Assembly: GCF_019679435.2 (NCBI RefSeq)
Contig: NZ_CP139781.1
Span: 4,770,001 to 4,834,000, forward strand
DNA: 64,000 bases
Direction: 5' to 3'
Source: Actomonas aquatica
Lineage (GTDB): Bacteria; Verrucomicrobiota; Verrucomicrobiia; Opitutales; Opitutaceae
Part shown: positions 23,294 through 45,559 of the stretch, piece by piece
How positions within the stretch are numbered: position 1 is the stretch's first letter
Layout: each line of letters begins with the position of its first letter
Notes under the pieces: generated by a model
Seen by the model: only the letters and a program-made list of their open reading frames with translations
Database searches by the model: none
What the model was told of the DNA's origin: nothing
Translations under genes and position numbers: made by a program

Positions 23294-24700
23294 TCAGAGG
23301 CTCAGCCGGGCGATGTAGGGGCTGCGGCTGGCGGCGGTGTTGAGTTCGCTGTAGTTGTCGATGGCGACGGAACCACCGGAGCCGAAGTTTTTGAGCGACT
23401 CGTCGAAATGATAGGAGCCGCTGCCGGAAAGGGTGGCGGAGTTGACGACGGCGGCGCCGGCAAAGTCGGTGTGGCCGGGCAGAATCAAGTCGGCGTCGGG
23501 GGCGTATATGGCGGCGTTGAGGGCGCCGCTGCCGGCGAGGCGGATGGTTTGTCCTAGGCTGCCGTTGCGGTTGCTCCAGATTTGCAGATTGGCGGGCGCG
23601 GAGGGGTTGGTGATGCCGGCACCGGATACGGTGATGTTGCCCGGGGTGTAGATGGTGAGCGACGCGTCGGGGGCGAGTCGGATGCGGCCGCTGCCGGCGA
23701 CGTTGAGGGTGGTGATGCCGGAGGGGGGCAGGTAGAGGGTGACGTCGCCCTCGATGGTGAGGGTGGCAGCGCCGGCGACCGACATGGAATCGAGTTGGAG
23801 GTAGGTGGTGGCGCCGGGGCTGCCGATGGTTTCGGCGGCGAGGTAGTAGGGTGGGCCGGCAACGCTGCGGGGCAGGACGTAGGGGGAGCGCGGGGTGGCG
23901 CCGGAAGGCACGGTGACGGTTTCGAAGTTGGCAGTGAAGTTGGTGGTGAGCGCGCCCGGGGCGAGGTTGTAGGGGCCGGCGATCGGCATGCCGCGGGGGC
24001 CGACCTGACCACCCCAGCTCATGGCCAGGCCTGCCATGAGAGAGCTGCCGACGGCGGTGGTGCCATAGAGGTCGGCGCTGCCGATGGAGATGGAGGGCAG
24101 GGCGGTGGAGGCGCTGGCGAGGCTGCCGTTGTCACGGGCGACGCCGGGACTCCAGCCGACGGGGGGCGTGGCCGGATCGTTGTCGGGGTCGGATTGCCAG
24201 CTATCGACCCAAGCGCCGCCGGACATGACGATGGTATCGCGGGCGAGCAGGCCGAAGGCGAAGAGGCCGCGGGAGGCGGTGGTGACGCGGAGCCATTTCT
24301 CGAGGGTGGCGCCGTTGGCGAGGGTGATGCGGGCACGGGCGCACACGGCGGGAGCGCTCGCAGCGTAGTTTTCCACCAACACTTTGACGGTGCCGGTGAC
24401 GCCGGCTCCGTAGTCGAAACCGCTGAGGGTGCGGGTGGCGTTGGAGCCGTTGATGGTCCAGCCAGTCCAAGCGTTGGGGTTGCCGTCTTCCTGCGCGTTG
24501 ATGGACCACATGCCGTGCTCGAGGCCGGTTTCGGCGAGGTCGACCGTGGCGGTGAGATAGAGGGCGCGGTGCGCGGTGTGGACGGCGGTTTGGCTGACGG
24601 TGAGGTAGCTGGCGAGGGATATCCCGATAACGGCGACAAACACGAGCGCGGTGATAAGGGCGCCCCCGCGGTTGGGGGCGGTGGTGGGCGCGTTTCGCAT
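23294..24700 (-). CDS. PilX/DUF7305-like large pseudopilin, cassette 1
   Basis: A 468-aa protein with an N-terminal membrane helix (GGALITALVFVAVIGISLAS, about residues 11-30). It lacks a classical FTLVE prepilin site, as in PilX-like proteins. The motif AETGLEHGMWSIN follows. The large exported part is Gly, Ser and Thr-rich with beta-helix-like blocks (LTIEGDVTLYLPP, LTIYTPGNITVSGAG, AAIYAPDADLILPG) and ends near GSGSYHFDESLKNFG. It closes the first of three V-W-X cassettes: the upstream gene stops 4 bases before this ATG. Probable role: tip or minor subunit of a pilus-like fibre, perhaps an adhesin. Substrate and partner are unknown. Confidence 0.85.
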   Translation of the reverse strand: MRNAPTTAPNRGGALITALVFVAVIGISLASYLTVSQTAVHTAHRALYLTATVDLAETGLEHGMWSINAQEDGNPNAWTGWTINGSNATRTLSGFDYGAGVTGTVKVLVENYAASAPAVCARARITLANGATLEKWLRVTTASRGLFAFGLLARDTIVMSGGAWVDSWQSDPDNDPATPPVGWSPGVARDNGSLASASTALPSISIGSADLYGTTAVGSSLMAGLAMSWGGQVGPRGMPIAGPYNLAPGALTTNFTANFETVTVPSGATPRSPYVLPRSVAGPPYYLAAETIGSPGATTYLQLDSMSVAGAATLTIEGDVTLYLPPSGITTLNVAGSGRIRLAPDASLTIYTPGNITVSGAGITNPSAPANLQIWSNRNGSLGQTIRLAGSGALNAAIYAPDADLILPGHTDFAGAAVVNSATLSGSGSYHFDESLKNFGSGGSVAIDNYSELNTAASRSPYIARLSL

Positions 24701-24704
24701 CGCG

Positions 24705-25241
24705 CTAGACGACCTTCTTGTTGCGCAGCACGAAGCGCGCGGAAGCGACACGTTGGGAGGTGTTGCTGTTGTCGACGGTGTTGGCGTGGAAACCGAGTTC
24801 GAGTTGAATCATTTTCACCGGTCCGCCGGCGGCGGCGGGATTGGCGGACAGGTTGATCTCGGAGGCGTTGATATCGAAGGCGCGGAACGAAAAGGTGTTG
24901 AGGTCGCGGGCGACGACGTCGGCGGACCCGGCGGCGGTGCGGGTGAGGGAGTCGGTGCCGGAGTCGAAGGCGTAGGTCACGGTTCCGCTGTCGGTGGCGA
25001 GGTTGAGCGTGTTGGCGTCGGACCAGTTGGCTCCGGTGGCGGCGCGACAGTCCTCGCCAAACTGCAGGAGGGTGGAGCGGGCGGCGGTCTCAATGTCGGC
25101 GTAGTTGGAGAGGCGAAAGCCGCTGCGGGTGAGATGGAAGTAGGTTGTTACGGCTCCCAGCAACAGGAGGCTGGAGAGGGTGAGTCCCACCAGGACCTCA
25201 GCCAGGGAGAAGGCACGTCGAAGCTCAGCTCTGGGCGGCAT
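24705..25241 (-). CDS. PilW/PulJ-like minor pseudopilin, cassette 1
   Basis: A 178-aa protein with the prepilin site RRAFSLAEVLVGLTL: basic leader, Phe, and Glu at +5 of the mature chain. One N-terminal membrane helix follows. The soluble part includes QFGEDCRAATGANWSD and ends ARFVLRNKKVV, both shared with the cassette 2 and 3 counterparts. The sorting site has Ala before Glu rather than the usual Val, a tolerated change. The protein would be cleaved by a prepilin peptidase not in this window. It overlaps the upstream gene by 17 bases. Confidence 0.87.
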   Translation of the reverse strand: MPPRAELRRAFSLAEVLVGLTLSSLLLLGAVTTYFHLTRSGFRLSNYADIETAARSTLLQFGEDCRAATGANWSDANTLNLATDSGTVTYAFDSGTDSLTRTAAGSADVVARDLNTFSFRAFDINASEINLSANPAAAGGPVKMIQLELGFHANTVDNSNTSQRVASARFVLRNKKVV

Positions 25242-25725
25242 TGTAGTAGTAATCGAAGAGGCCGTTGCGGCTGTAGTGCAGTTGGAAGGCGCGGCGGTGG
25301 GGTTGTCCGTCGATGGAGGTCCACGTGGCGATCAGGACGATGGCTTTCATCTGCGTGGGGCTGCCGAAGCCGGGCACATCCTGCACGGTGCGGGTGATGG
25401 TGAGGCGGTCGGCCTCAATGGAATTACTGGTGTAGGTGGCGGGGATGTTGATCTCGGCGGAGGCCGGCAGAGCGTTGAGTTGGCTCCAGTTGAGCAAACG
25501 GATGCGCTCCATCTCGCTTTGCATGGCCTGCCCGGCGGCGGTGGCGGTGCGGGCGGTATCGAGGTTACGAAAGCCGGCTTGGAGCACGATGATGGCGGAG
25601 GCTAGGGCGAGAGTCAGCACGCTGGCGGCCACCATGACCTCCACGAGCGTGAAGGCGGTGTTTCCCTGCGGGCGCGTCTTGGGTCGCCCACCGAGGGTGC
25701 TTGCCGCCGAGTTAGTTAGAGCCAT
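25225..25725 (-). CDS. PilV-like minor pseudopilin, cassette 1
   Basis: A 166-aa prepilin with processing site NTAFTLVEVMVAASVL and one N-terminal helix. It carries the block GFRNLDTART-TATAAGQAMQSEMER shared with cassette 2, and ends with NGLFDYYYN, a tail found in all three PilV-like proteins here. It is the first gene of its cassette. A sigma70-like promoter (TTGAGA-18-TTATAG, 25732-25761) ends six bases before the ATG, suggesting a leaderless message. The inverted repeat GACCT/AGGTC overlaps the -10 region. Confidence 0.88.
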   Translation of the reverse strand: MALTNSAASTLGGRPKTRPQGNTAFTLVEVMVAASVLTLALASAIIVLQAGFRNLDTARTATAAGQAMQSEMERIRLLNWSQLNALPASAEINIPATYTSNSIEADRLTITRTVQDVPGFGSPTQMKAIVLIATWTSIDGQPHRRAFQLHYSRNGLFDYYYNAAQS

Positions 25726-25728
25726 TCG

Positions 25729-25761
25729 GACCTATAATTGTCAGGTCTGGATGGATCTCAA
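25729..25761 (-). promoter_or_regulatory. Promoter and overlapping inverted repeat, pseudopilin cassette 1
   Basis: On the minus strand, TTGAGA (25761-25756) and TTATAG (25737-25732) are 18 bases apart, close to the ATG at 25725. The inverted repeat GACCT (25729-25733) / AGGTC (25743-25747) spans the -10 element and could be a repressor site. Confidence 0.5.
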
Positions 25762-25917
25762 CGTTCGTGAACCGGATTAGGGGGGCGTATTTTTGCCTAG
25801 GAAAAATTCCGTGGTTAGTTTGTAGGGTATTTGGCACTACAGTCGGTGGCGGAGGGCCGAAGAGGGCGGGCGTGCGGCGGGCTTGCCAAACGGGGGCGAA
25901 GGCGTGAGTTTGCGCGG

Positions 25918-26401
25918 CTTGGTTCCGGGGCCAGATCGTCGCTCCGGGGTTCTTTGTATCCCAAGGCGCGGGTAATGCCGCGTCCGATAAGAGTCATTCC
26001 CCGGAGAGGAAAGTCCGGACACCACAGGGCAGGATGCCGTGCGAGCTTCACCGCAAGCATGGGAGGCGTGCGTCAAGGCACGTCGACGGCCAGTGTCACA
26101 GAGAATATACCGCCCGGCGGCTTGCCGTCGGGTAAGGGTGAAAAGGTGGGGTAAGAGCCCACCGCGTCGCGCAGCAATGCCGGCGGCATGATAAACCCCT
26201 TCCGGTGCAAGGCAAAATAGGCGGCTGACCGGCCCGGTTGTAAGCCGCGGGTATGTCGCACCCACCTACGCCTCGGCGCTTTGGCGCCGGAGCTGCGGCG
26301 GGCGGGTTCCTCTGGCAACGGAGGGGCTCGAGATAAATGACGATCACGGGATCGCTTCGGCGGTGCCGCACAGAATCCGGCTTATCGGCCCCGGAACCAA
26401 G
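25918..26401 (+). ncRNA. rnpB: RNase P RNA (class A-like)
   Basis: The catalytic RNA of RNase P, which trims the 5' ends of tRNA precursors. The universal P4 halves are present: GAGGAAAGTCCGGAC (from 26006) and ACAGAATCCGGCTTA (26370-26384). Conserved internal blocks GGGTAAGGGTG, GTAAGAGCCCACCG and GCAAGGCAAAATAGG appear in the right order. The ends pair perfectly as P1: CTTGGTTCCGGGGCC (25918-25932) with its complement at 26387-26401. A run of five Ts follows, which may mark termination. At about 484 nt it is longer than the usual 350-400 nt; an extra GC-rich hairpin (around 26270-26330) may account for part of this. It lies between pseudopilin cassettes 1 and 2 on the opposite strand. Confidence 0.95.
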
Positions 26402-26445
26402 TTTTTGCCGATGAGGAGGTGGCGCGCGTGAGGCGCAGCCACGGC

Positions 26446-27873
26446 TCAGTTGGACATGTAGGGGAGGTAGGGGGCTCGATCGGCGGCGGAGCTTATTTCC
26501 TGATAGTTGGAGATGCGCATGGAGCCGCCTTCGCTGTAGTTGAGCAGCGATTCGTCGAAGTGGTAGGCTCCGGAGCCGGAGAGGTTGGCGCTGTTGACGA
26601 TGGCGGAGCCGCCGAAGTCGGTGTCGCCGGGGAGCGAAAGGTCGGCGTAGGGGGCGTAGATCACGCCGTAGAGGGCACCGCTACCTTCGAGGGTGATGGA
26701 TTGGCCCGTCGTGGTGCGGGGACTCCAGATCTGAAAATCTTTGGGGTAGCCGTTGTTGATCACGCCGGCACCCGAGATGTTGATGTTGCCCGGGGTGTAG
26801 ATCGTGAGACTGGCGCCGTGAGCGAGTTTGATACTGGCGGCGCCGGTGACGGTGAGGGTGGTGATATGATCGGGGGGGAAAATGAGGATGACATCGCCGG
26901 CGATGGTGAGTTCGCCGTCGTTGTTGATCGTCATCTGATCCATTTGCAAAATGGTGGTCGCGGAGGGGGAGCCGATGGTTTCGCGATTGAGATACCAGGG
27001 AGCAACGGTGAGGCCGCGCGGGAGTGTGTAGGGGGAGCGGACGGTGGCTCCGCCCGGCACCTCGACATCTTCGAAACTGGCGGTGAAATTGGTGCTGAGA
27101 GCCCCCGGGGCGAGGTTGTAGGACCCCGCGATGGGCATGGAAGACGGGCCGACCTGGCCGCCCCAGTCCATGGCGAGACCGGCGGAGGTCGAGGCCCCGA
27201 CGGAGACGGTGCCGTAGATATCGGCGCTCCCGATGCTGATCGACGGGGTGGCACTGGAGACACTGGCGAGGCGGGTGTTTTCCAGGGCAACGCCGGCGGA
27301 CCAAGCTTGGGCGGGCGTGGAGTCGTTGTTATCGGGATTGGAGATCCAGCTGTCCATCCAAGCGCCGCCGGACATGACGATGCTCTGGCGGGCGAGCAGG
27401 CCGTAGGCAAAGACGCTGCGGGCGGTGGTGGTGATGCGGAGCCATTTTTCGGAGCTCAGGCCGGCACCGGAGGTGACGAGGCCGCGGGCAATCACGGTGG
27501 GGGTGGCGCTGGTGTAGTTTTCGACCAGGACGTAGGCGGTGCCGGTTACACCGTTGGCAAAATCGAAGCGATCGAATTTGCGGCGAGCCAGATTGCCGTC
27601 GACGGTCCAGCCGGCCCAGGCGGCGGCGTTGCCGTCGTTGGTCTGGTTGATGGCCCAGAGGCCGTGCTCAAGTCCGGTTTCCGCCAAGTCGTGGGCGGCG
27701 GTGCGATAGACGGAGCGGTGGGAGAGGTCGGCGGTGGTGCGGGTGAGCGTCATGTAGCTCACGAGCGAGACGCCGATGAGCGCGACGAAGATGAGGGCGG
27801 TGATGAGGACCCCACCGCGCTCGGGAGAGCACGGGCCAGCCGATGGGGAGGACGGCGCTGGCGCGGGCGACAT
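26446..27873 (-). CDS. PilX/DUF7305-like large pseudopilin, cassette 2
   Basis: A 475-aa paralogue of the cassette 1 protein. The N-terminal helix GGVLITALIFVALIGVSLVS is followed by LAETGLEHGLWAIN. Shared blocks include VMSGGAWMDSW, SAGLAMDWGGQVGP, MPIAGSYNLAPGALSTNF and AYHFDESLLNYSEGGS. The beta-rich region reads LTIYTPGNINISGAGVI. The close match to cassette 1 over the whole length points to a duplication more recent than that of cassette 3. It is the last gene of cassette 2 and is convergent with rnpB. Expected location is the cell surface, anchored or assembled through its helix. Confidence 0.85.
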   Translation of the reverse strand: MSPAPAPSSPSAGPCSPERGGVLITALIFVALIGVSLVSYMTLTRTTADLSHRSVYRTAAHDLAETGLEHGLWAINQTNDGNAAAWAGWTVDGNLARRKFDRFDFANGVTGTAYVLVENYTSATPTVIARGLVTSGAGLSSEKWLRITTTARSVFAYGLLARQSIVMSGGAWMDSWISNPDNNDSTPAQAWSAGVALENTRLASVSSATPSISIGSADIYGTVSVGASTSAGLAMDWGGQVGPSSMPIAGSYNLAPGALSTNFTASFEDVEVPGGATVRSPYTLPRGLTVAPWYLNRETIGSPSATTILQMDQMTINNDGELTIAGDVILIFPPDHITTLTVTGAASIKLAHGASLTIYTPGNINISGAGVINNGYPKDFQIWSPRTTTGQSITLEGSGALYGVIYAPYADLSLPGDTDFGGSAIVNSANLSGSGAYHFDESLLNYSEGGSMRISNYQEISSAADRAPYLPYMSN

Positions 27874-27874
27874 G

Positions 27875-28429
27875 CTAGCTAACCTTCTTGTTGCGCAGCA
27901 CGAAGCGGGCGGAGATCAGGCGCTGGGTGGAGCGCACGGTCGTCACTTCCTGACGGGAGAGGTCGAGATCCACTTGGATCATCTTGGCCGGGCCGCCGGC
28001 GGTGCTGGGGGCGGAGGCAACGTCGAGGGCGTTGGTATTGATATCGAAGGCCTTGAAGGAGAAGGCGGAGATTTCGTCGGCGATGACTTGGGAATTGCCG
28101 TTGGCGGTGCGGATGAAGGAGCCGCCACTGGCATCAAACTCATAGACGATCGCGTCGCCATCGACGGTGAGGACGAGGGTGGTGGCGTCGGACCAACTGG
28201 CGTCGGTGGCGGTGCGGCAGTCTTCGCCAAATACCTGATAGGTGGCACGGGCTTGAGTCTCCATTTCGTTATACTGACCGAGACCCACGCCGGAACGGCT
28301 GAGGAAGAGGAAGGTGCTGATGATACCGGCCAACACGAAGACGGATGCGGCCGAACTGACCATGAGTTCAACCAAGGTAAAACCGGCGACGGAGGCGGAG
28401 GAAGAGAGGGGGCGCTTAGGTTTGAGCAT
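27875..28429 (-). CDS. PilW/PulJ-like minor pseudopilin, cassette 2
   Basis: A 184-aa prepilin. The site VAGFTLVELMVSSAASV is canonical (Phe at +1, Glu at +5). QYNEMETQARATY and FGEDCRTATDASWSD follow, and the C-terminus ARFVLRNKKVS matches the cassette 1 protein. A second, weaker hydrophobic bias is not seen, so there is one membrane helix only. It overlaps the upstream PilV-like gene by 14 bases and precedes the PilX-like gene by one base, indicating one transcription unit. Confidence 0.88.
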   Translation of the reverse strand: MLKPKRPLSSSASVAGFTLVELMVSSAASVFVLAGIISTFLFLSRSGVGLGQYNEMETQARATYQVFGEDCRTATDASWSDATTLVLTVDGDAIVYEFDASGGSFIRTANGNSQVIADEISAFSFKAFDINTNALDVASAPSTAGGPAKMIQVDLDLSRQEVTTVRSTQRLISARFVLRNKKVS

Positions 28430-28898
28430 GGTTGTAGTAGTAGTCGAAGAGGCCGTTGCGGGCGTAGCGCATGCGGAACAGTCGGGTGGCGGGGTGGCCG
28501 TTGATCGTCGTCCACGTGGCGGTCACGATGATCTCTTTCATCTCGCCGCCGAAGCTGGGCACGTCGCTGACGGAGCGGATGACGGTGATGCGGTCGGTTT
28601 CGATGGTGCTGGTGGTGAAAAATGAGGCAGGGTCGATTTCCTCCGAGGCGGGCAGGGCTTCGACGCTCTCCCAGTTGAGGAGGCGGATGCGTTCCATTTC
28701 ACTTTGAATCATCTGGGACGCGGTGGTGCCCAGACGCGCGGTGTCGAGATTACGGAACCCGTTTTGTATAACGATGATGGCGGATGACAGGGCCATGCTG
28801 AGCACGGAGGCGGCCATCAACACCTCAAGCAGAGTAAAGCCGCCCCGACGTGTGGCTTTGGGGTCGCCAGGGGCCTGACTTCGGGGGCGAAAAAGCAT
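28416..28898 (-). CDS. PilV-like minor pseudopilin, cassette 2
   Basis: A 160-aa prepilin with processing site RGGFTLLEVLMAASVL. It shares SAIIVIQNGFRNLDTAR, IQSEMERIRLLNWESVEALPASEEID and the NGLFDYYYNHAQT tail with the cassette 1 protein. The family assignment rests on the prepilin site plus its position before a PilW-like gene. Upstream, a TATATT -10-like element lies 10 bases before the ATG, and a perfect 8-bp inverted repeat (28945-28964) stands 47 bases upstream. Confidence 0.88.
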   Translation of the reverse strand: MLFRPRSQAPGDPKATRRGGFTLLEVLMAASVLSMALSSAIIVIQNGFRNLDTARLGTTASQMIQSEMERIRLLNWESVEALPASEEIDPASFFTTSTIETDRITVIRSVSDVPSFGGEMKEIIVTATWTTINGHPATRLFRMRYARNGLFDYYYNHAQT

Positions 28899-28944
28899 GT
28901 AATTAGGGAATATAACCCAGATGCTCTATCGCAAATGGTTATAA

Positions 28945-28964
28945 TACGTAAGGGGGCTTACGTA
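28945..28964. promoter_or_regulatory. Inverted repeat upstream of pseudopilin cassette 2
   Basis: TACGTAAG-GGGG-CTTACGTA is a perfect 8-bp inverted repeat with a 4-base loop. Its position just upstream of the presumed promoter fits an activator or repressor binding site. Confidence 0.5.
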
Positions 28965-29024
28965 GTTTGCTTAAGTCCGTTCTGGTATAGCCTGAACGGG
29001 GGGGCAGCGAACGAGGGACGGAAT

Positions 29025-29054
29025 AAAAAAGCCGCGACCCGTCGGGGGCGCGGC
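29025..29054 (-). terminator. Terminator of pseudopilin cassette 3
   Basis: On the minus strand a GC-rich stem (GCCGCGCCC pairing with GGGTCGCGGC, one mismatch, loop about 4) is followed by TTTTTT. It lies 40 bases beyond the last gene of cassette 3. Confidence 0.8.
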
Positions 29055-29093
29055 ACTTTGTGTAAGCGGCGTGTGGGATGGACTTCGCGTAGC

Positions 29094-30506
29094 CTAGAAA
29101 CTCAAGATACCGCTGTATAAGCTACGGGCGGAGGACGTCGTGAGCTCCGTCCAATTGGCGATGCCAAAGGGGTTGCCGCTGGTCATATCGGACAGGGCTT
29201 CGTCGTAGTGAAACTCGCTGCCACCGTTGATGGTGATGGTGTTGGATACCACCGCGCCATAGACGCTGCCGCTGACGCCGCCGCCGTTCATGCTGACGTC
29301 GGCGTTGGGGGCGTAGACGACGGCGCTGAGTTGGCCGTTGCCGGAGATGTCGACGGACTGGGAGCCGGGCGCGCCGGCGGCGCGGGTGCTCCAAAACTGG
29401 AAGGCGGCGGGGTCGTTGGCGTTGGCGATGCCGCGACCGGCGATGGAAATGTTGCTGGCGGCATACAGTTCCAGGGTGGCGCTGCCGAGGACCTGGATGG
29501 AGGCGTTGCCGCCCACGCTCACACCGGTGCCGGAAGCGCTGGTGATGCGGATGACGACGTCGCGACCGGGAGCGATGGAAAGGATGCGGGAAGACGGGCC
29601 GCTGAGGGAGATAGACGTGACGTCGTAGTAGAACTTGCCGTCGGCGGCCGGAAGATCGAGGGCGCGGGGCAGGGTGAAGGCGCTGTTGATGGAACCGATG
29701 CTGTAGCCGGCGGTGGTGGGAGCGGCGGCGTCTTCAAAGTTGGTGGTGAAATCGGTGGTGACACGGCTGTAGTCGATGGTGCCGGCGGCGGCGGCGAAGT
29801 TGCCGGAAACGACGCCGTTGGGGCCGACGTCGAGGCCGGAGTAATCGGCGGTGCCGATGGAGACGTAGCCAAAGATGTCGGAGTTGCTGAGGGTGAAGCT
29901 GTTGACGGCCACGGAGCCACTGCCGGCGGAGCCGCGGGGAAAGCGGTTGTTGGCGCCGGCGCCGAGGGAGGCATTGTAGACGCCGAGACGGGAGTCGTAG
30001 GAATCGACGCTGGCGTTGCCGCCGCTGAAGGTGAGGGTGTCTTTGGCGACGAGGCCGTTGGCGAAGAGGGAGCGTTTGGTGAGGCTCACGCGAATCCACT
30101 TTTCGATCGGGTCGCCCTGCGCGGGGGTGATGGTGGCGCGGGCGACGATGACGGGCGCGATGCCGAGGGTGTGGTTGCGCACGTAGACCCGCACGTTGCC
30201 GGTGGAGTTGGCGTCGAAGTCGAAGCCGGTGAAGTTGCGCCAGGCGTTGTTGGCGTCGGCGCTCCAGCCGTTCCAGGCGTTGGGGGCACCGTCCACGGCT
30301 TTGTTGATGGACCACATGGCCTGCTCGAGTCCGGTTTCGGCGAGGTTGATGGCGGCGTTGGCGTAGAAGGCGCGGTTGGAGATGCGCAGGTTTGTCTGGC
30401 CGATGTTCAGATAGCTGGCCAGAGATACGCCGATGGCCGCGAGTAGCAGCATGGCGACGACCAGGAGGGAGCCGCGGCGACGAGATGGGACGCGAAAGGG
30501 GGTCAT
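29094..30506 (-). CDS. PilX/DUF7305-like large pseudopilin, cassette 3
   Basis: A 470-aa protein with N-terminal helix RGSLLVVAMLLLAAIGVSLAS, then LAETGLEQAMWSINKA. It keeps the architecture of the cassette 1 and 2 copies: EKWIRVSLTKRS, a Gly and Ser-rich region with beta-helix-like repeats, AVVYAPNADVSMNGG and EFHYDEALSDMTSG near the end. The central part is clearly diverged from the other two (DVGPNGVVSGNFAAAAG replaces the WGGQVGP block). The chosen ATG overlaps the upstream stop as ATGA; in-frame sequence further upstream is a shadow of the PilW-like gene. Confidence 0.85.
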   Translation of the reverse strand: MTPFRVPSRRRGSLLVVAMLLLAAIGVSLASYLNIGQTNLRISNRAFYANAAINLAETGLEQAMWSINKAVDGAPNAWNGWSADANNAWRNFTGFDFDANSTGNVRVYVRNHTLGIAPVIVARATITPAQGDPIEKWIRVSLTKRSLFANGLVAKDTLTFSGGNASVDSYDSRLGVYNASLGAGANNRFPRGSAGSGSVAVNSFTLSNSDIFGYVSIGTADYSGLDVGPNGVVSGNFAAAAGTIDYSRVTTDFTTNFEDAAAPTTAGYSIGSINSAFTLPRALDLPAADGKFYYDVTSISLSGPSSRILSIAPGRDVVIRITSASGTGVSVGGNASIQVLGSATLELYAASNISIAGRGIANANDPAAFQFWSTRAAGAPGSQSVDISGNGQLSAVVYAPNADVSMNGGGVSGSVYGAVVSNTITINGGSEFHYDEALSDMTSGNPFGIANWTELTTSSARSLYSGILSF

Positions 30507-31090
30507 GTGGTGACGCGTTTGTTGCGCAGGATGTAGCGGGCGGAGAGCACGGTGTTGGTGGCGGTGGTGACCGTCACGGAGGAGCGGGAGGCCTTGAGAT
30601 AGACCTGCAGCTGTTTGGTCACGTCGCTGGCCGCGTCGCGCTTGGCGGCGGTGGAGAGGTCGTTGAGGGCGACGGAGGTTCCCGTGATCATGTAGCCGGT
30701 GAAGGAAAATTCGCTGACGCCACTCACGAGCACGGTGGAGCCGCTGCCGGTGGTGCGGGTGAAGGTTTGGTCGCCGGAGTTGTAGGCATACGTGATGGAC
30801 GACCCGCCGACGGAAAGTCGCACGCTGGAGGCACTGTTCCAATACAGGTCGGAGGCTTGGCGGGTGTCCTGGGCGAAGAGCTCCAGCCCACCGCGAGCCT
30901 CGGTCTCCATCTCGGAGTAGTTGCTGATATTGGCCCCGCTGCGGCCGAGGAAGAGGAAGGTCGAAACGACGCCGGCCAGCACAAAGCTGGCGAGGCTGGC
31001 CCCGACCATCACTTCCACCAAGGTCAGGCCGCTGCGATGGTGCCGCGGGTGGCGGGGCTTAGGAACGCGCGAGGGTGTAGTAGTAGTCAT
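30503..31090 (-). CDS. PilW/PulJ-like minor pseudopilin, cassette 3
   Basis: A 195-aa prepilin with site RSGLTLVEVMVGASLAS; Leu replaces Phe at +1 of the mature chain, which is tolerated in some minor pilins. SNYSEMETEARGGLELF and the C-terminal ARYILRNKRVTT correspond to the other cassettes. The N-terminal helix is SFVLAGVVSTFLFLG. Coupled to its neighbours: it overlaps the PilV-like gene by 32 bases upstream and the PilX-like gene by 4 bases downstream. Confidence 0.87.
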   Translation of the reverse strand: MTTTTPSRVPKPRHPRHHRSGLTLVEVMVGASLASFVLAGVVSTFLFLGRSGANISNYSEMETEARGGLELFAQDTRQASDLYWNSASSVRLSVGGSSITYAYNSGDQTFTRTTGSGSTVLVSGVSEFSFTGYMITGTSVALNDLSTAAKRDAASDVTKQLQVYLKASRSSVTVTTATNTVLSARYILRNKRVTT

Positions 31091-31541
31091 AGAGACCGTC
31101 CTTGGCGTAAAAGGTCTTAAATTGGCGGGTCAGGGGGCGGCCGTCTACGGTCGTCCAGGATACGACGAGCAGGATTTCCTTCATCTCGCCGACTTTGCCG
31201 GCGACGTCACTGACGGTGCGGGTGAGGGTGAATTGGGCGGCCAGATGGGCGTCGGTCGTGAAGACGGCGTTGAGGTCGACCTCGTTGGTGCCGGACAGGG
31301 CGGCGATGTCTCCCCAGTCCATGAGGCGCAGTCGCTCCATTTCGCTTTGGAGGATTTGGGACGAGAGGGTGATGTTGCGCGCAACATCGAGGGTCTTGAA
31401 GCCGCTCATCACGGTGTAGGTCGAGGTCGAGATACCAAAGGCCATCACGAAGGTCGCGATGGTCACCTCCAGAATAGTGAAGCCCCGGCGGCGGCGAGGG
31501 GGGCGCGCGGGGCGTTTCGGTGGGAGCGGGGACGAGTGCAT
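31059..31541 (-). CDS. PilV-like minor pseudopilin, cassette 3
   Basis: A 160-aa prepilin. A basic leader (PARPPRRRR) precedes the site GFTILEVTIATFVMAFG. SGFKTLDVARNITLSSQILQ and QSEMERLRLMDWGDIAAL correspond to the cassette 1 and 2 blocks but with more change. The tail KDGLYDYYYTLARS keeps the YYY motif. It is the first gene of cassette 3. A short inverted repeat (ACTAT-CGG-ATAGT, 31551-31563) and a TATAG element lie immediately upstream. Confidence 0.87.
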   Translation of the reverse strand: MHSSPLPPKRPARPPRRRRGFTILEVTIATFVMAFGISTSTYTVMSGFKTLDVARNITLSSQILQSEMERLRLMDWGDIAALSGTNEVDLNAVFTTDAHLAAQFTLTRTVSDVAGKVGEMKEILLVVSWTTVDGRPLTRQFKTFYAKDGLYDYYYTLARS

Positions 31542-31563: not shown

Positions 31564-31767
31564 GAGGGAGTTGCGTTAGAGAGACTCGGGCTAAATTATG
31601 TCCCTAGTGGCTTAGGTCTGTTCGGAGAATGGATACCTCCAAATGGGCTGGATTGTCCGCACCAAGCCCTTGGCTTCAAGCCACGCTTATCACCTGATCG
31701 GGAATCTCGCCCGCGTTTTGGGGGCCGGGGAGGGAGGCCGCTCGTTAGCGAGCGAGCCGGACCGGAA

Positions 31768-32430
31768 TCAGGAGTGTTGCGACTGCGATTGGACGTAGAG
31801 GGCCGCGGCTTGGGAGCGGCGGCGCACCTGCAGTTTGTCGAAGACGCTGCACAGGTAGTTTTTCACCGTGTTGTCCGAGAGTCCCATCTCGTCGCCGATC
31901 TGCTTGTTGGTCTTACCTTCGGCGACCAACGCGAGCACGCGCCGTTCCTGGGGGGAAAGAATACTGAGGTCGCCGGCTTCGCCCTTGCCGCCGCGCATCA
32001 TGCGCATGACGCCGGCCGTGATGTCGGGGGAGAGGATCGACTTGCCTTCCATGATGTCGCTGATCGCCTTCACCAATCCCAAGGGGTCGATCTCCTTCAT
32101 GAGGTAACCCTGGGCACCGCTGGTGATCGCTTCGTAGACGAAGCCGTCGCTGGTGAACGAGGTGAGGACGAGGATGCGGGTGTCGGGAAGGTTTTTGAGG
32201 ATCTCCCGGCAAGCGGTGAAGCCGGAGCCGTCGGGCAGGCGAATGTCCAGCAGGACCACGTCGGGACGGTGTTCAATGGCTGAGGAGATCGCTTCGGCCA
32301 CCGTAGCGGCTTCGCCACAGACTTGGATGCCGCTTTCGGCGCCGTGGTCATGCAGCACGGAGCGGATACCTTCGCGAACCAGGGTGCTATCATCGACAAT
32401 GAGAACGCGGATGGTGTCTTGGGCAGTCAT
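31768..32430 (-). CDS. NarL/FixJ-type response regulator
   Basis: A 220-aa transcription regulator. The receiver domain (residues 8-125) has acidic residues in VLIVDDSTL, the phosphoacceptor Asp in VVLLDIRLPDG (about 60), the Thr/Ser in VLTSFTS and the Lys in YLMKEID. The LuxR-type helix-turn-helix (about 155-215) contains LSPQERRVLALVAEGKTNKQI and DNTVKNYLCSVFDKL. It is encoded just after the CHASE4 histidine kinase (5-base gap) and is its likely partner. The location immediately upstream of the pseudopilin cassettes makes these possible targets, which is speculation. Confidence 0.95.
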   Translation of the reverse strand: MTAQDTIRVLIVDDSTLVREGIRSVLHDHGAESGIQVCGEAATVAEAISSAIEHRPDVVLLDIRLPDGSGFTACREILKNLPDTRILVLTSFTSDGFVYEAITSGAQGYLMKEIDPLGLVKAISDIMEGKSILSPDITAGVMRMMRGGKGEAGDLSILSPQERRVLALVAEGKTNKQIGDEMGLSDNTVKNYLCSVFDKLQVRRRSQAAALYVQSQSQHS

Positions 32431-32435
32431 TATTG

Positions 32436-34082
32436 TTATGTTTTGGCAGGTTTAAGGGGAATCTCCACGACGATGCGAGCCCCTTTTGGGAGGACGGTTT
32501 CGACCTTTAGCTCACCGCCGAGGGCAAGCACCCGATCGCGAATGTTGGTCATGCCACGACCGTGACCAGCGGGTTCGGTGGCGGGCAGGCCCCGGCCATC
32601 ATCGGCGATGCAGACGATGACTTTATCGAGTCCCGGGTGGAGTTGGATCTCGACGAGCGAGGCATGGGCGTGGCGGACGATGTTGCTCAGCGCTTCGCGA
32701 ATGACGTGCAGGAGTTGGGCGCGTTGAAAGGGAGTGAGTTTTTCAGCACACGTCTCATCGATATCGGTTTCGGTCGCGAGATCGGCCGTGCCGCAGGTGA
32801 AGTCGACCAGATGCTGCACGGATTCGTGGAAGGTGCGCACCTGGGTGGCTTCGGGCTCCAAGCCGGTGATAAAGAGCCGCAGTTCGCGGATGGTTTCGTT
32901 GAGGCGTTCCTGCACGACCTCGAGGCGACGTTCGACTCCAGCAGGATCATCAGGGAGTTGGCGCCGGGCGGTGGCGATGGCCATGCCGGACGCGTAGAGC
33001 GTCTGAATCACGCTATCGTGCAAGTCGCGGCCCAAGCGCACCCGCTCTTCGATGGTCTGGCGCAGGGTGGTTTCGCTGAGTTGGAGGGCTTCGGCGACTT
33101 CGTGGCGTCGAGAGACCTCCTCGGCGAGGCGCCGTTTTTGTGCAAAGGAACCGTCGACCAGACGCGCGAGGCGACCGAATTCTCCCGGTTGATGGATCAA
33201 GGGGCCGAGGGGGCTGGGGTCGTCTGCACCCAATCCGGCTTCGAGGCGGCTCAGCGGCTTGAGCACCCAGCGGCGCAAGGCCAGGCTGAGCAGCACGAAG
33301 GTTAACCCACCAAATCCGATGAAGATTCCGAGTTCGCTTTGGTCGGCGGCATCCCGGATCGCGAGTGCCGTGGAGTTACGGTCGATCACGAGGTCGGCCA
33401 ATTTACGCCCGCGATAGTCTTCCATCGGGCGCACGATGCGGATGGGTTGCTCTGTGGTAGAGAGAGGCAGGTCCTGCAGGGTGGGGACGAGGGCAACATC
33501 TGCGTGCAGAAGCTCAGCGAGTTGATCGACGCGGGCCGGGTGCCAAATGCGACCGGCCACAAACCAGCCGTGGGCGGGATCGCTGCGATCGGTGGTTTCG
33601 GAGGGTTGGATGGGGGCCGCGCGCAATTCGACGATACCGGATGGCGTCTCGGCGAAAAAGGAGGCATGGCGGTCACGGGCCAGTAGGCGGGTGGTGTCGG
33701 CAGGAGCGACTGGAAACGCCAAAGTTGAAAACGCCTCGCGGCTCTCGCGGTGGATCGGGCTGCCGTCCAGTGCGAGCACCCACATGACGTCGACGTCGAA
33801 GAAATCGACCATTTGCGCCAGATTGATCTGAGCCCACTCCGGGTCGGGATTTCCCACGAACTCCACCATGTCGTCCCACCAACTGTAGTCGTCGACAAAC
33901 TGGCGTAGCGGAGCAGAGGCCAACTCGAGGAAACGGGTCACATCCTCGGTCTGCTCCGCTTGCAGATTGGCGCGCAAAGCGGCTTGTTCACCCTGTTCGG
34001 CCCAATGCAAAAGTCCCAATGCCAGGGCAAAACCAACCATGAGCACGGCGAGCAGGGATAAGAGGCGAAGGCGGAGGGTCAT
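32436..34082 (-). CDS. CHASE4 sensor histidine kinase, NarX/DesK-type
   Basis: A 548-aa inner-membrane kinase. A first membrane helix (about 3-25) precedes a periplasmic CHASE4 sensor domain with the hallmark DDYSWWDDMVEFV and LDGSPIHRES, followed by a second helix (LGIFIGFGGLTFVLLSLAL, about 250-268). A HAMP-like linker leads to the HisKA_3 helix with RLGRDLHDSVIQTLYA, where the His is phosphorylated. The HATPase domain shows EALSNIVRHAHAS (N box), DDGRGLP and GHGRGMTNIRDRV (G boxes). The start was set at MTLRLRLL; an ATG five codons upstream is equally possible. Ligand unknown. Confidence 0.93.
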   Translation of the reverse strand: MTLRLRLLSLLAVLMVGFALALGLLHWAEQGEQAALRANLQAEQTEDVTRFLELASAPLRQFVDDYSWWDDMVEFVGNPDPEWAQINLAQMVDFFDVDVMWVLALDGSPIHRESREAFSTLAFPVAPADTTRLLARDRHASFFAETPSGIVELRAAPIQPSETTDRSDPAHGWFVAGRIWHPARVDQLAELLHADVALVPTLQDLPLSTTEQPIRIVRPMEDYRGRKLADLVIDRNSTALAIRDAADQSELGIFIGFGGLTFVLLSLALRRWVLKPLSRLEAGLGADDPSPLGPLIHQPGEFGRLARLVDGSFAQKRRLAEEVSRRHEVAEALQLSETTLRQTIEERVRLGRDLHDSVIQTLYASGMAIATARRQLPDDPAGVERRLEVVQERLNETIRELRLFITGLEPEATQVRTFHESVQHLVDFTCGTADLATETDIDETCAEKLTPFQRAQLLHVIREALSNIVRHAHASLVEIQLHPGLDKVIVCIADDGRGLPATEPAGHGRGMTNIRDRVLALGGELKVETVLPKGARIVVEIPLKPAKT

Positions 34083-34184
34083 GGTCGGGAGGGGCAAGGG
34101 GCGGGGAAAATGGTTGGCGAATTCGCCCTTGACTCGATCACACGGCTTTGAGTGTTTTGCCCTCTTACAATTTTAACTATCGCC

Positions 34185-41027: not shown

Positions 41028-42071
41028 ATGTTATTTGCCTCAAAGCCGAAAGGTTTGTTCGTCGAGTTCGCGAACCACGCGCGGCGTGTTGTGCGCGCGA
41101 ACGCGGCTACCTCTCCGATGGTGATCGAAGAATTTGCGGAGTGTGACGAGTCGGACACCGAAGGCTGGGGGGAGATTGTGGAGCATTTTTTGCCGAAGAA
41201 AGCACCACACGGCCTTCTGCAGTCCGTCTGTTCGGTGGTTCCGCCGAAACGGTTGCTGCGCAAGGCCACGATTGAACCCAAGAAGTTGGGGGATGCCAAA
41301 TACCTGAGTGAGTTTGCGGCGGGGCAATTTCGCATCGATCCGGCGGCCTATAAGTTGGCCATGATCAATGCCAAGGACGGCCGTGAGTATGACATGAAGG
41401 CGGCCGCGGAGAAGGAGGTCCTGATCACCGGGATGCCCAAGGCGGTGGTGGAGGAAGTGCAGGAGCACATTCTGGAGGAGAGTGTTTACCCGGAGCGCTT
41501 GGAGCTGGGGTCGCTGGCAGCCATCGGGGCGTTGCGCGATTACCTGCGTTTTGCAGATATCCGCAATCCGGTCGTGATGATTGAGTTGGAACTCGATTCC
41601 ACGCATTCGTTCATCGTTTCTCCGGACGGGGTGGAGGCGTCTCGCCTGTTGCCGCACGGGCTGAATTCCATGATCCCGGTCGTGCAAAAGGAGTTGGGAC
41701 TGAAAGATGAGGAGTCGGCGAAGAAGCTGTTTTTCTCCAACACCTTCGATTTTACCGGGATGGGTCCGGCGCTGATCAAGCGACTCCTGCACGAGCTTCA
41801 GTCATCGATCGGCTTCTTTGAGGTGCAGACGGGCCAGTCGATTGGTCAGGTCTTCTGCTTCAACCTCGCTTCGAAGCTCTTGTGGCTCGAAGACGTGATC
41901 GCGGCTCAACTGGGAGTGGAAACCATGAGCTTCGATCTGAAGCCGTGGTTGGAGTCGCACGAAATCACTTTCTCGGAAGAAACGTCCGCCATGGAACTGA
42001 GCCGTGACTGGTTTGGTGTGCTGAGCCTGCTGCCCCGATACGATGCTATCAAAACTGAAGAAAAAGAGTGA
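41028..42071 (+). CDS. pilM: PilM-like pilus assembly ATPase-fold protein
   Basis: A 347-aa cytosolic protein with an actin-like fold that recruits PilN to the inner face of the membrane in type IV pilus or type II secretion machines. Identification rests on position (first of pilM-N-O-P-Q) and on the predicted core: the N-terminal strand GLFVEFANHARRVV, the second subdomain VVMIELELDSTHSFIVSPDG, and the C-terminal helix ELQSSIGFFEVQTGQ. The sequence is divergent from proteobacterial PilM. The preceding 220 bases hold no gene. It overlaps pilN by 29 bases, implying coupled translation. Confidence 0.85.
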   Translation: MLFASKPKGLFVEFANHARRVVRANAATSPMVIEEFAECDESDTEGWGEIVEHFLPKKAPHGLLQSVCSVVPPKRLLRKATIEPKKLGDAKYLSEFAAGQFRIDPAAYKLAMINAKDGREYDMKAAAEKEVLITGMPKAVVEEVQEHILEESVYPERLELGSLAAIGALRDYLRFADIRNPVVMIELELDSTHSFIVSPDGVEASRLLPHGLNSMIPVVQKELGLKDEESAKKLFFSNTFDFTGMGPALIKRLLHELQSSIGFFEVQTGQSIGQVFCFNLASKLLWLEDVIAAQLGVETMSFDLKPWLESHEITFSEETSAMELSRDWFGVLSLLPRYDAIKTEEKE

Positions 42072-42660
42072 TGCGACGGAAGTAACGGTGCCGTCGTGGC
42101 ACTTGGACTTCCGTGATACGGACGCGCTTCCGGATATGAAGCCGATCCGGACGGCGTTTTTCATCAATGGTCTGGCGATCCTGATCGCGGCGATGTCGCT
42201 GCTGTTGTTCGCCTACCAGGAGTTGGAGCTCTATTCCCTGCGTAGCCAGATCGATGATTGGGATCGTCAAATCGAGCAGGACCGTGCGCAGAGCGGGCAA
42301 GCCGCGGCGGCGTTCAAGCAATTCCAAGCCCAAGAGCGTAAGATTAAGGAAACGGAAGCCTTCCTGAAAACGCCGATGAAGCTATCGACGTTCCTGCTGC
42401 GTTTGGGCGAAATCCTGCCGGAAAACATCAAGATCGACACGATCGACTGGCGGGGTCGCACGATCACGTTGCGCGGGACGGTTTCGGGGTCGCCGGATGA
42501 GGCCAGCGGCTACGCATCAGGCATGGTCGAGTTGTTGAATAGCGACGAGGTGTTCGGACCGGTTTTTGACGATGCGGTGTTGACCAGCCTTCTGCGCAAT
42601 CCGGCGTCGGGCATGTTGGCGTTGGAAATTCGCTTGGAGTTCACTCAGGAGGCCAAGTGA
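42043..42660 (+). CDS. pilN: PilN-like bitopic assembly protein
   Basis: A 205-aa inner-membrane protein with a cytosolic N-terminus (about 35 residues, PilM-binding in the family), one membrane helix (AFFINGLAILIAAMSLLLFAY, about 38-58) and a periplasmic coiled coil (LYSLRSQIDDWDRQIEQ and AFKQFQAQERKIKETE). The ferredoxin-like periplasmic domain follows (LRLGEILPENIKID, RGRTITLRGTVSG). It pairs with PilO to form the alignment ring under the secretin. Size and layout are those of PilN, though identity is by structure and position rather than strong motif. Confidence 0.85.
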   Translation: MLSKLKKKSDATEVTVPSWHLDFRDTDALPDMKPIRTAFFINGLAILIAAMSLLLFAYQELELYSLRSQIDDWDRQIEQDRAQSGQAAAAFKQFQAQERKIKETEAFLKTPMKLSTFLLRLGEILPENIKIDTIDWRGRTITLRGTVSGSPDEASGYASGMVELLNSDEVFGPVFDDAVLTSLLRNPASGMLALEIRLEFTQEAK

Positions 42661-42670
42661 GGACATAGTC

Positions 42671-43246
42671 ATGAACGGTTCAGCCATCATCACTTTCATC
42701 AAAAAGCACCCGGTCGGAGTCGGGTGTATGTTGCTCGCGATCGTGCTGTTCATCGGCCGTTCAGTGCGGGCTGGCAGCATGGACAATCTGGATGCGGAGC
42801 TGCACGAAAAGACGCGCCAAGGGGAACGTTTCAAAAACAACCTGCGTTACGCGTCCAAACTCGATGAGCATCTGGCGACCGTGAATCGGGCGGTGGGAAT
42901 CATCGACGAGCGCGCGATCAATCCGGCCTCACTGGCGACCAACCTGCAGTTCTTTTACCGCCTCGAGTCAGAGTTGGGGCTTACGCTGATCGATCTGCGC
43001 CAAGGCTCGCCGGAGCGGGGCAAGCAGAATGGGTCTTACATCGGCGTGCCCTACACCGTGGCGGTTGAAGGCACTTATCGGCAATTGATGCAGTTGCTGC
43101 AGCGGCTCGAAAACGGGTCGCACTATGTGCGGTTTCTTTCCTCCAACCTGGCTCCCAGCCGCTCCCAAGCGGAGCAAGGCTCCGACCCCACGGATCCGGT
43201 GCTGGTCTTGAGCCTCAACCTCGAACTCCTCGGTCGCACGCAATGA
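42671..43246 (+). CDS. pilO: PilO-like bitopic assembly protein
   Basis: A 191-aa protein with a short cytosolic tail, one membrane helix (VGVGCMLLAIVLFIGRSV, about 15-32), a coiled coil and a periplasmic domain with VPYTVAVEGTYRQLMQLLQRLE, which fits the ferredoxin-like fold of PilO. It forms a heterodimer with PilN. The stop overlaps the next ATG by 4 bases. Sequence is divergent; order and architecture give the call. Confidence 0.85.
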   Translation: MNGSAIITFIKKHPVGVGCMLLAIVLFIGRSVRAGSMDNLDAELHEKTRQGERFKNNLRYASKLDEHLATVNRAVGIIDERAINPASLATNLQFFYRLESELGLTLIDLRQGSPERGKQNGSYIGVPYTVAVEGTYRQLMQLLQRLENGSHYVRFLSSNLAPSRSQAEQGSDPTDPVLVLSLNLELLGRTQ

Positions 43247-43737
43247 GAACCTCGTCCAGTCGGGTCCTGATCACCGTCCTCGGACTGGTCATTTCGACCG
43301 CGCTCCTCCGGTCACAGGGGGCCGACGTTTTGCCCGGCAATCGGCGGCTGCCGACGGTCGAGCTCGCGGCCTCGCTCGCCGACCGGGACCCGATCGCGGC
43401 CTTGCCGGAAGATCTTAACAACCCGTTTTACCCGGACTATCTGAAGCCGAAGGAGCAGCCTGATGAGCCGGGAAGTCTGCTCCCGGACACTCCGACCGGA
43501 CCGTCCAGTAACTACGAGTTGTTGGAGACGATCGCGCCGGAACTTACCCCGAGTGGCACCATGGTGTTGGGTGGGGAACCGCTGCTGTTATTTGGTCAGA
43601 AGAAAATCCGGGTCGGTGGCGAACTGCCGATCATTTACGAGGGGCGTCGTTACACGCTGATCATCAGCGCCATCGAATCCTCCTTTTTCACTCTCCGGCT
43701 CGGTGAAGCCGAATACACCCGTCCCATCAAACCTTGA
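43243..43737 (+). CDS. pilP: PilP-like periplasmic or inner-membrane linker
   Basis: A 164-aa protein with an N-terminal hydrophobic segment (VLITVLGLVISTALL, about 8-22). No lipobox Cys follows it, so it is either secreted or anchored by an uncleaved signal, unlike lipoprotein PilP. A Pro-rich linker (KPKEQPDEPGSLLPDTPTGP) leads to a C-terminal beta domain (GGEPLLLFGQKKIRVGG, then YTLIISAIESSFFTLRL) that in PilP docks with the secretin. Identification depends on position between pilO and pilQ. Confidence 0.8.
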   Translation: MRTSSSRVLITVLGLVISTALLRSQGADVLPGNRRLPTVELAASLADRDPIAALPEDLNNPFYPDYLKPKEQPDEPGSLLPDTPTGPSSNYELLETIAPELTPSGTMVLGGEPLLLFGQKKIRVGGELPIIYEGRRYTLIISAIESSFFTLRLGEAEYTRPIKP

Positions 43738-43745
43738 TATCCATC

Positions 43746-45530
43746 ATGAGGACACGACTCATCCCCCTTTCGTTAGCAGCGTTCACTCTCAGCCTGACTG
43801 CCTGGGCCCAGAACGCCGTGCCGCCTGGTGTGACCGACTTGCCGCCGGCGGACCAGATGCCCGCTGCACCGGACATGATCGACGAGAATGATGATACTGC
43901 CATCGCCGAACCCGCGCCGCCAGAGCCCGCGGTGGTGATCGCCGACGATGTTACGGCCTCCTCTGTAGCCCGTGCTCGCGACACGCTGTCGGTGGATTTT
44001 CCGGATGAGGAAATTCGCAACATTTTGCGTAACGTCGCCGACCTCTTTGAGCTGAATCTGGTCATCCCCGACACCCTGCAGGGCAACACCTCGATCAAGT
44101 TGCGCGATGTCACTTGGCGCCAGATCTTCGAGGTCGTGTTGGCCCCGGTGGGCTACACCTTTGTCGAAGAGGGCAATATCATCAAGGTGGTGAGTCAGGA
44201 GTCCTTGTTGCAGGAGCCGGTGAGCACGGATGTCTTCGTGATCAATTACGCTCGAGCCGGTGATCTGCTGGGTTCCATCGAGCCGCTCATCGATACCGCG
44301 GTCGGAGGTCGCATCGTGGTGAATGCGCGCAGTAACGCGTTGGTGATCACCGAACGCCCCTCGCGCCTCAGTCGCATCCGCCCGATCATCGAGCAGTTGG
44401 ATAAGGCCACCGACCAGGTCATGATCGAATCTAAGTTTGTGGAGGTCACCGACCGCGACGTGAAGAACATCGGGGTGAACTGGTCCTCTCTGAGCGGTTA
44501 CCAAGTCGGTGTCGGCGGTATCGGTCGCACCTACGATTCAACCAGTGGCAATACCTACTCCAACGAGTCTTCGACCGAGAGCGTTCGTGAGAATGAGAAT
44601 ACGAACGAAAGCGAATCTTCGTCGGGGACCGATGGCTCCACGACGAGCGGTTCCACCTCCACCACGACTTCCACCATCACTACAGGTGGCGGTGCCACGA
44701 GCACCAGCACCTTGGCCAACTCCCTGGGCAGCACGAATGGCACGACCAGCAGCTCGACTGACACGGTCACGGCGGTCAATTCTCTGACTGATACGATCAA
44801 CAATCTCAGCAGCCTGATCGGCACGGGCGGCACGCAGCGCAGCACCACCGCGGTATTTTCGGCCGATGAGTTCGCCCTCGTGCTCAGCGCGCTGCAGTCG
44901 CAGAACGAAACCAAGCTGGTTTCGAATCCGACGGTCGTGACCCTCAACAATACCGAAGCGCAGATCAACGTCGGCGCGGAGTATCCGATTCCCAACTACA
45001 CTTACAACGCTGAACGCGGCACGTTCGAAGTGGCCGGTTTTGAATACCGCCCGGTGGGCATCATCCTCAAGGTGACGCCCCAGGTGAATGCCCAAGGCTT
45101 CATTAAGCTCTCCATCGAGCCGGAAGTCAGCAGCCAGAATGGTTTCACCAGCTTTGGCGGCGCGGGTGGCGCGCAGATCCCGATCATCGCGACGCGCAAA
45201 GCGAAGACACAGGTTTCTCTCCGCGACGGTTATACCATGGGCATCGGTGGACTCATCGAGTCCAACACGTCCAATGGCCAAACCAAGGTGCCACTGCTCG
45301 GTTCCATTCCTGGACTCGGCCGTCTCTTCCGATCGGATAACAAAACGGAAGACAGCCGGAACCTCCTCATCTTCATCACGGCCAAGACGCTTTCCGCTGA
45401 GGGCGCTAGCGTCGAAGAGGTCTTCGACCCGCGCACGGTGCGCCGCATGAAACTGCGACGCGACGAACTCCCCGGTTTCCGCGATGGCTCTGATCCCTTC
45501 CTGCCAGCGGCCGAAGAGGATCCGGAGTGA
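43746..45530 (+). CDS. pilQ: Type IV pilus/type II secretion secretin (PilQ-like)
   Basis: A 594-aa outer-membrane secretin that forms the gated channel for the fibre. The signal peptide is MRTRLIPLSLAAFTLSLTAWA. N-domains follow: SVDFPDEEIRNILRNVADLF (secretin/TonB short N domain), then the N1-type block VFVINYARAGDLL and IVVNARSNALVITERPSRL. A Ser/Thr/Gly/Glu-rich insert of about 90 residues (about 261-350) interrupts the chain before the C-terminal secretin domain, which has NETKLVSNPTVVTLNNTEAQI, VGIILKVTPQVNAQG, and VPLLGSIPGLGRLF. ATG 43746 was chosen over TTG 43734. It overlaps nothing but follows pilP after 8 bases. Confidence 0.95.
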   Translation: MRTRLIPLSLAAFTLSLTAWAQNAVPPGVTDLPPADQMPAAPDMIDENDDTAIAEPAPPEPAVVIADDVTASSVARARDTLSVDFPDEEIRNILRNVADLFELNLVIPDTLQGNTSIKLRDVTWRQIFEVVLAPVGYTFVEEGNIIKVVSQESLLQEPVSTDVFVINYARAGDLLGSIEPLIDTAVGGRIVVNARSNALVITERPSRLSRIRPIIEQLDKATDQVMIESKFVEVTDRDVKNIGVNWSSLSGYQVGVGGIGRTYDSTSGNTYSNESSTESVRENENTNESESSSGTDGSTTSGSTSTTTSTITTGGGATSTSTLANSLGSTNGTTSSSTDTVTAVNSLTDTINNLSSLIGTGGTQRSTTAVFSADEFALVLSALQSQNETKLVSNPTVVTLNNTEAQINVGAEYPIPNYTYNAERGTFEVAGFEYRPVGIILKVTPQVNAQGFIKLSIEPEVSSQNGFTSFGGAGGAQIPIIATRKAKTQVSLRDGYTMGIGGLIESNTSNGQTKVPLLGSIPGLGRLFRSDNKTEDSRNLLIFITAKTLSAEGASVEEVFDPRTVRRMKLRRDELPGFRDGSDPFLPAAEEDPE

Positions 45531-45559
45531 GCCCTGCAACCATCGATCCCACCACGATC

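Follow-up and report, generated by a model that had tools for sequence, protein, structure and literature searches.

It is still being worked out how a single pilus machine comes to carry different tips for binding. Three minor-pilin/PilY1 clusters serve one type IVa pilus machine in Myxococcus xanthus (PMC7541494), where the HsfBA two-component system shifts which PilY1 is made (PMC9109919). In Pseudomonas aeruginosa, the minor-pilin operon fimU-pilVWXY1Y2E is controlled by FimS-AlgR, which is itself affected by the minor pilins (PMC5979040). Modular tip pilins, PilA-B-C, are described for Streptococcus sanguinis (PMC8179133, PMC9934059).

Three V-W-X cassettes of pilin-like genes were examined in Actomonas aquatica (Opitutaceae), the genome of which is one complete contig of 6.11 Mb. 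The window is the whole stretch of DNA that was analyzed, 64,000 nucleotides in length, and coordinates given without a contig name refer to it. A sequence-only reading had described three cassettes of the same gene order with overlapping or nearly touching genes, and all nine genes were confirmed on the - strand at 23294-31541:

25225..25725, - strand: cassette 1 V, a PilV/GspI-like prepilin of 166 aa
24705..25241, - strand: cassette 1 W, a PilW-like prepilin of 178 aa
23294..24700, - strand: cassette 1 X, a modular pilin with DUF7305 and without Glu5 (ORF also open from a GTG at 24751)
28416..28898, - strand: cassette 2 V
27875..28429, - strand: cassette 2 W
26446..27873, - strand: cassette 2 X, with an AF2 model of pLDDT 92
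31059..31541, - strand: cassette 3 V
30503..31090, - strand: cassette 3 W
29094..30506, - strand: cassette 3 X, with DUF7305 and a match to the ice-binding-like adhesive domain pAdhesive_15 that exceeds the Pfam cut-off

V and W overlap by 14-32 nt in the three cassettes, and the W/X junctions measure -4 to +4 nt when ATG starts are taken for X1 (24700) and X3 (30506), which are the better starts. Pairwise alignment of the nine proteins gave identities of 58% (V1-V2), 38% (V1-V3) and 44% (V2-V3) for V, 45% (W1-W2), 36% (W1-W3) and 40% (W2-W3) for W, and 60% (X1-X2), 41% (X1-X3) and 39% (X2-X3) for X. Alignment z-scores against shuffles ranged from 36 to 131, far above chance, and the copies are therefore true paralogues. 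By identity, cassettes 1 and 2 are the closer pair in V, W and X, which the sequence-only reading had noted for V and X, and the motifs it listed (DYYY, LRNK(K/R)V, AETGLE and H-x-DE(S/A)L) were each found.

The only strong X copies in the genome are these three. A count of cassettes elsewhere in the genome yielded no close copies and one remote fourth V-W-X trio with DUF7305, at ~3.220-3.223 Mb (L081:15126-17907), with no machine genes adjoining. Across the family, X homologues were present in 82/150 sampled genomes, with up to seven matches per genome, and the V-W-X order was nearly universal, with occasional truncated sets or an extra X. In three arrays the extra X follows X without a V and W of its own (L069:9682-12445, L074:5468-8479 and L076:10662-13786).

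Many relatives have a common gene order, gyrA-gyrB-rrf2-zinc ribbon gene-rnpB-[X W V]n-regulator-kinase-rpsT-addB-addA-pilM, in which one feature had been given a central place by the sequence-only reading:

25979..26397, + strand: rnpB (RNase P RNA class A), an incidental neighbour

The cassettes had been placed around rnpB; in fact cassette 1 alone lies beyond it, and rnpB itself is on the opposite strand. In 7/7 relatives tested it stands at the 3' end of the array, so cassette 1 of the window was displaced or duplicated across it. A functional partnership between rnpB and the cassettes was rejected on the same observations.

Each cassette encodes two pilins with Glu5 (V and W) and one modular pilin without it (X). 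Matches to N_methyl were found for V and W, above the cut-off for V2, V3 and W3, along with weak matches to PilV/GspI/ComGE and prepilin-peptidase-dependent profiles; V1 and W1 have Ala instead of Gly at position -1 of the predicted cleavage site. The N-terminus of X is prepilin-type, with Thr or Val in place of Glu5, and the AF2 model of X2, built with 57 family sequences, has a 61-residue N-terminal helix followed by an extended beta-rich body. The type III prepilin signal and N-terminal helix of type IV pilus minor pilins are thus present, in the N_methyl matches of V and W and in the X2 helix. The cassettes contain neither PilY1 nor FimU.

All three X proteins match DUF7305 (PF23981) above its cut-off of 27 bits, at 55.4 (X1), 51.8 (X2) and 64.5 (X3). 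PF20597 (pAdhesive_15) is matched by X3 at 25.7 against a cut-off of 23.8 and by X2 below it, at 18.4, with no match for X1. No X matched PilX_N (PF14341) at E values up to 1 or the GspK family above its cut-off; X resembles PilX in position and in the absence of Glu5 only. The modelled body of X2 can be read as a beta-solenoid from its strand pattern and PDB fold matches: the best 11 PDB matches from Foldseek were ice-binding-protein beta-helices, but weak ones, none with E below 0.001 and the top ones above 0.02. When the PDB was searched by sequence, neither X nor PilM gave a strong match. That X is a modular tip pilin can fairly be inferred, and it may have an adhesive function.

Trees and distance matrices for V, W and X were calculated from 51 cassettes. 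The three trees agree on the placement of the window's copies: cassette 3 clusters with cassettes of its own genus, and cassettes 1 and 2 fall in a second clade with L063 and with a G020 cassette that is sister of cassette 2. The distance matrices correlate at 0.78-0.80, and for each gene pair, 0/2000 within-locus swaps of members reached the observed fit, which indicates that V, W and X evolve as cognate sets.

Genes of a pilus machine lie 10.5 kb from the cassettes in the window:

41028..42071, + strand: pilM homologue, with no second one in the genome at E 1e-8
42043-42660, + strand: pilN-like gene, named by order and size
42671-43246, + strand: pilO-like gene
43243-43737, + strand: pilP-like gene, named by order and size
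43734..45530, + strand: PilQ/GspD-type secretin gene

Profile matches for these genes included PilM (TIGR01175, 3.5e-8), PilQ (TIGR02515, 1.8e-75) and Secretin (1.8e-48); the PilM and PilQ matches fall short of their curated NCBIfam cut-offs, which makes the proteins homologues and not strict members. PilO was matched in relatives at 1.7e-6. Directly after the secretin, at 45527-50674, the window encodes a protein of 1715 aa whose repeats are of bacterial Ig, beta-propeller-like and PKD type; it is kept in some relatives and missing or replaced in others.

Linkage to a PilM-N-O-P-Q machine, as seen for type IV pilus minor pilins, is present here and in relatives. In many Opitutaceae the cassettes lie ~10 kb from pilM-N-O-P-secretin, and pilM occurs in 79/82 X-positive genomes versus 41/68 others (counts that ignore phylogeny). 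X lies less than 13 kb from pilM on 44 tabulated contigs, which were chosen for carrying both genes and so form a list and not a rate. At this same gyrAB locus, two distant family members have V-W-X and pilMNOPQ 2 kb apart. Other genomes have a contiguous V-W-X-pilM-N-O, with V-W-X abutting pilM, once in tandem; these arrangements tie V-W-X to a PilMNO machine. At L109:4677-16886, V-W-X-pilM-pilO occurs twice in tandem, the pilus modules being duplicated along with the minor pilins.

The same genes bear on whether the cassettes could instead supply pseudopilins to a type II-like secretion system, exporting enzymes in place of building surface pili. V and W do resemble GspI/J, X resembles GspK in missing Glu5, the secretin scores nearly equally for GspD, and the PilO-like gene is also GspM-like. 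However, the linked machine has PilM, where type II systems have GspL, and a separate secretin-GspE-GspF-pseudopilin locus is found at 5.1 Mb of the same genome. We consider this explanation improbable.

Candidate regulatory features lie upstream of and between the cassettes:

31768..32430, - strand: NarL-type response regulator gene, directly upstream of cassette 3
32436..34097, - strand: histidine kinase gene (CHASE4, HisKA_3, HATPase_c)
31575..31606, - strand: promoter element of the form TAGG-N23-CTAA, 65 nt before V3, conserved upstream of V3 orthologues
28945..28964, no strand assigned: 8-bp palindrome upstream of V2, a possible operator
29026..29059, - strand: terminator-like hairpin with T6 between X3 and V2, its fold not significant against shuffles

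Two-component genes linked to a minor-pilin operon, in the manner of FimS-AlgR or HsfBA, are thus present. In 23/26 related loci such genes are found upstream of a V, no more than 1.5 kb away, and some relatives have a second two-component pair serving the next cassette. On 26 tabulated contigs a regulator match lies 0.3-1.3 kb from X (chosen rows, from which no rate follows). Regulator and X also tend to occur in the same genomes (27/28 versus 55/122, ignoring phylogeny). At L070:14043-14046 and L078:7464-7467 the kinase gene and V share 4 nt, and no regulator gene separates them. A similar layout was seen with another protein family at ~526.6-536.5 kb of the window's own genome (L086:4626-14479), where kinase and regulator genes are followed by two sets of pilin, pilin and large pilin-like protein, the last being 814 and 882 aa.

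The TAGG-N23-CTAA element is conserved in the genus, and 23-24-nt versions occur in several other family members. The TAGG/CTAA pattern was found in 10/51 upstream regions versus 0.7 expected, with the pattern derived from five of the ten matching sequences and the other five giving independent support. A fuller pattern has a single exact match in the genome, before V3. An operator common to all three cassettes was rejected, the element being at cassette 3 and absent from cassettes 1 and 2, and a promoter scan gave nothing above chance. The sequence-only reading had assigned each cassette its own promoter-proximal inverted repeat; the three repeats are unrelated in sequence, and the 8-bp palindrome of cassette 2 alone stands out (fold z of -6.1, versus about -1.2 for the inverted repeats of cassettes 1 and 3).

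Selection of the cassettes by phase or by condition had also been proposed, and these two halves of the proposal fared differently. For phase-variable display, switched by DNA inversion, recombination or slippage, the short promoter-proximal inverted repeats were the one favourable sign. Those upstream palindromes are unlike one another, the DNA copies do not exceed 74% identity over stretches of at least 100 nt, and a search across the array for invertible, recombinogenic or slippage sequences found no inverted repeats of at least 22 nt, no near-identical direct repeats and no slippage tract. Phase variation was rejected on these grounds; it is largely refuted and we regard it as very improbable. 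Selection by condition is favoured by the conserved two-component system that stands directly upstream, together with the promoter element at cassette 3, absent from cassettes 1 and 2.

Expression of all three cassettes together, without any selection, would give either a mixed population of pili or a single larger composite tip; we judge this rather unlikely. The cassettes are close together in one orientation beside a single two-component system, and a recognizable promoter element stands at cassette 3 only, so read-through is possible. Against this, the gap between cassettes 3 and 2 is 195 bp with a terminator-like hairpin, the upstream sequences differ, cassette 1 is set apart by rnpB on the other strand, and the cognate co-evolution of V, W and X speaks against a mixed complex.

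The explanation that we favour, and hold to be probable, is that each cassette of the array encodes its own cognate minor-pilin complex (tip or priming) for one type IV pilus-like machine, and that the three are deployed as regulated alternative tips, much as in M. xanthus. In each set, V and W would serve as PilV/W (GspI/J)-like pilins, and X as a PilX/GspK-like modular pilin atop the complex, its beta-solenoid carried out as a binding head. The CHASE4 kinase and NarL-type regulator would control at least cassette 3, probably via the TAGG-N23-CTAA element. Given their different upstream sequences, cassettes 1 and 2 are probably deployed under other conditions, which would result in alternative tips on one machine. 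The idea of alternative fibre tips, already put forward in the sequence-only reading, is plausible and partly supported, by the single pilM 10.5 kb away, by the conserved linkage and by the coherent, co-evolving cassettes.

In seven genomes from two Opitutaceae genera (G039, G073, G095, G115 and G132; G136 and G153), regulator and prepilin V form a single in-frame fusion:

L118:1163-2287: regulator-V fusion ORF
L119:1483-2589: regulator-V fusion ORF
L120:1498-2592: regulator-V fusion ORF
L121:1498-2622: regulator-V fusion ORF
L122:1495-2592: regulator-V fusion ORF, without ATG, GTG or TTG between the halves
L123:1498-2595: regulator-V fusion ORF
L124:1495-2589: regulator-V fusion ORF, without ATG, GTG or TTG between the halves

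The fusion ORFs encode 364-374 aa, comprising receiver, LuxR-type HTH, short variable linker and V prepilin without a stop, and the predicted phosphoacceptor Asp and a conserved Lys are invariant. A Pfam scan of three fusions found all three parts in each, with N_methyl above the cut-off in one, and an AF2 model was confident for both halves with the linker open. No ATG, GTG or TTG occurs from the HTH to the mature pilin in G095 and G153, so V can hardly be made alone there, and an internal V start was rejected as an explanation of all fusions; the others have a GTG that could serve as a start, placed within the linker in two of them and in the last helix of the regulator in the rest. Assembly error is an unlikely cause, the fusion being common to seven separate assemblies, with the other six 65-76% identical to that of G039. 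G030 has regulator and V in the same frame, separated by a TGA. A sample of 373 genomes from across the order gave a fusion match again in G136 only.

A functional tie between the neighbouring regulator and the cassettes is strongly supported by the fusion. A more tentative proposal is that signal transduction and the assembly of the pilus tip form one physical module in this family, with the regulator as leader of V. Prepilin peptidase would then free one regulator per tip pilin, coupling tip production to cassette transcription, and the kinase-regulator-VWX arrangement of the window would be its unfused counterpart. Should the fusion act in this way, it would be a new coupling of protein export processing to gene expression. 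No earlier report of a regulator-prepilin fusion was found in the open-access library that was searched, which is without most subscription papers.

Among known prepilin families, Verru_Chthon (TIGR02596/02598/02599/02600) is similar in having paralogous prepilin cassettes and is named after Verrucomicrobia. Membership was rejected: V reached 16-17 bits against a cut-off of 51.4, and X had no match to protein A. A Verru_Chthon-like four-gene prepilin cluster, below the family cut-offs, is located at ~464-468 kb of the same genome (L117:3848-8482), separate from the V-W-X array.

The system of M. xanthus is alike in having three paralogous V-W-X sets per machine, a PilX without Glu5 and a two-component system that changes the tip protein. 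Its clusters are dispersed and include FimU and PilY1, whereas the Opitutaceae cassettes have neither, carry a large putative beta-solenoid on X and stand in tandem beside their own two-component genes. P. aeruginosa likewise has a minor-pilin operon under a two-component system, but as one operon, with PilY1 and without a fusion, and AlgR is another type of regulator than the NarL-type regulator beside the cassettes. S. sanguinis shares minor pilins whose pilin part bears a large grafted binding module; it differs in having a single set and modules unrelated in fold as far as tested, and the abstracts of its two papers describe no two-component system. Since the tip sets of this family are matched, lie in tandem, are linked to a regulator and include a modular subunit that is self-contained, tip swapping is testable here. 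Compared with all three systems, the Opitutaceae cassettes are set apart by lacking PilY1/FimU, by placing the putative head on X and by a regulator that is adjacent or fused; taken by analogy, the Opitutaceae system is like a combination of those of M. xanthus, P. aeruginosa and S. sanguinis.
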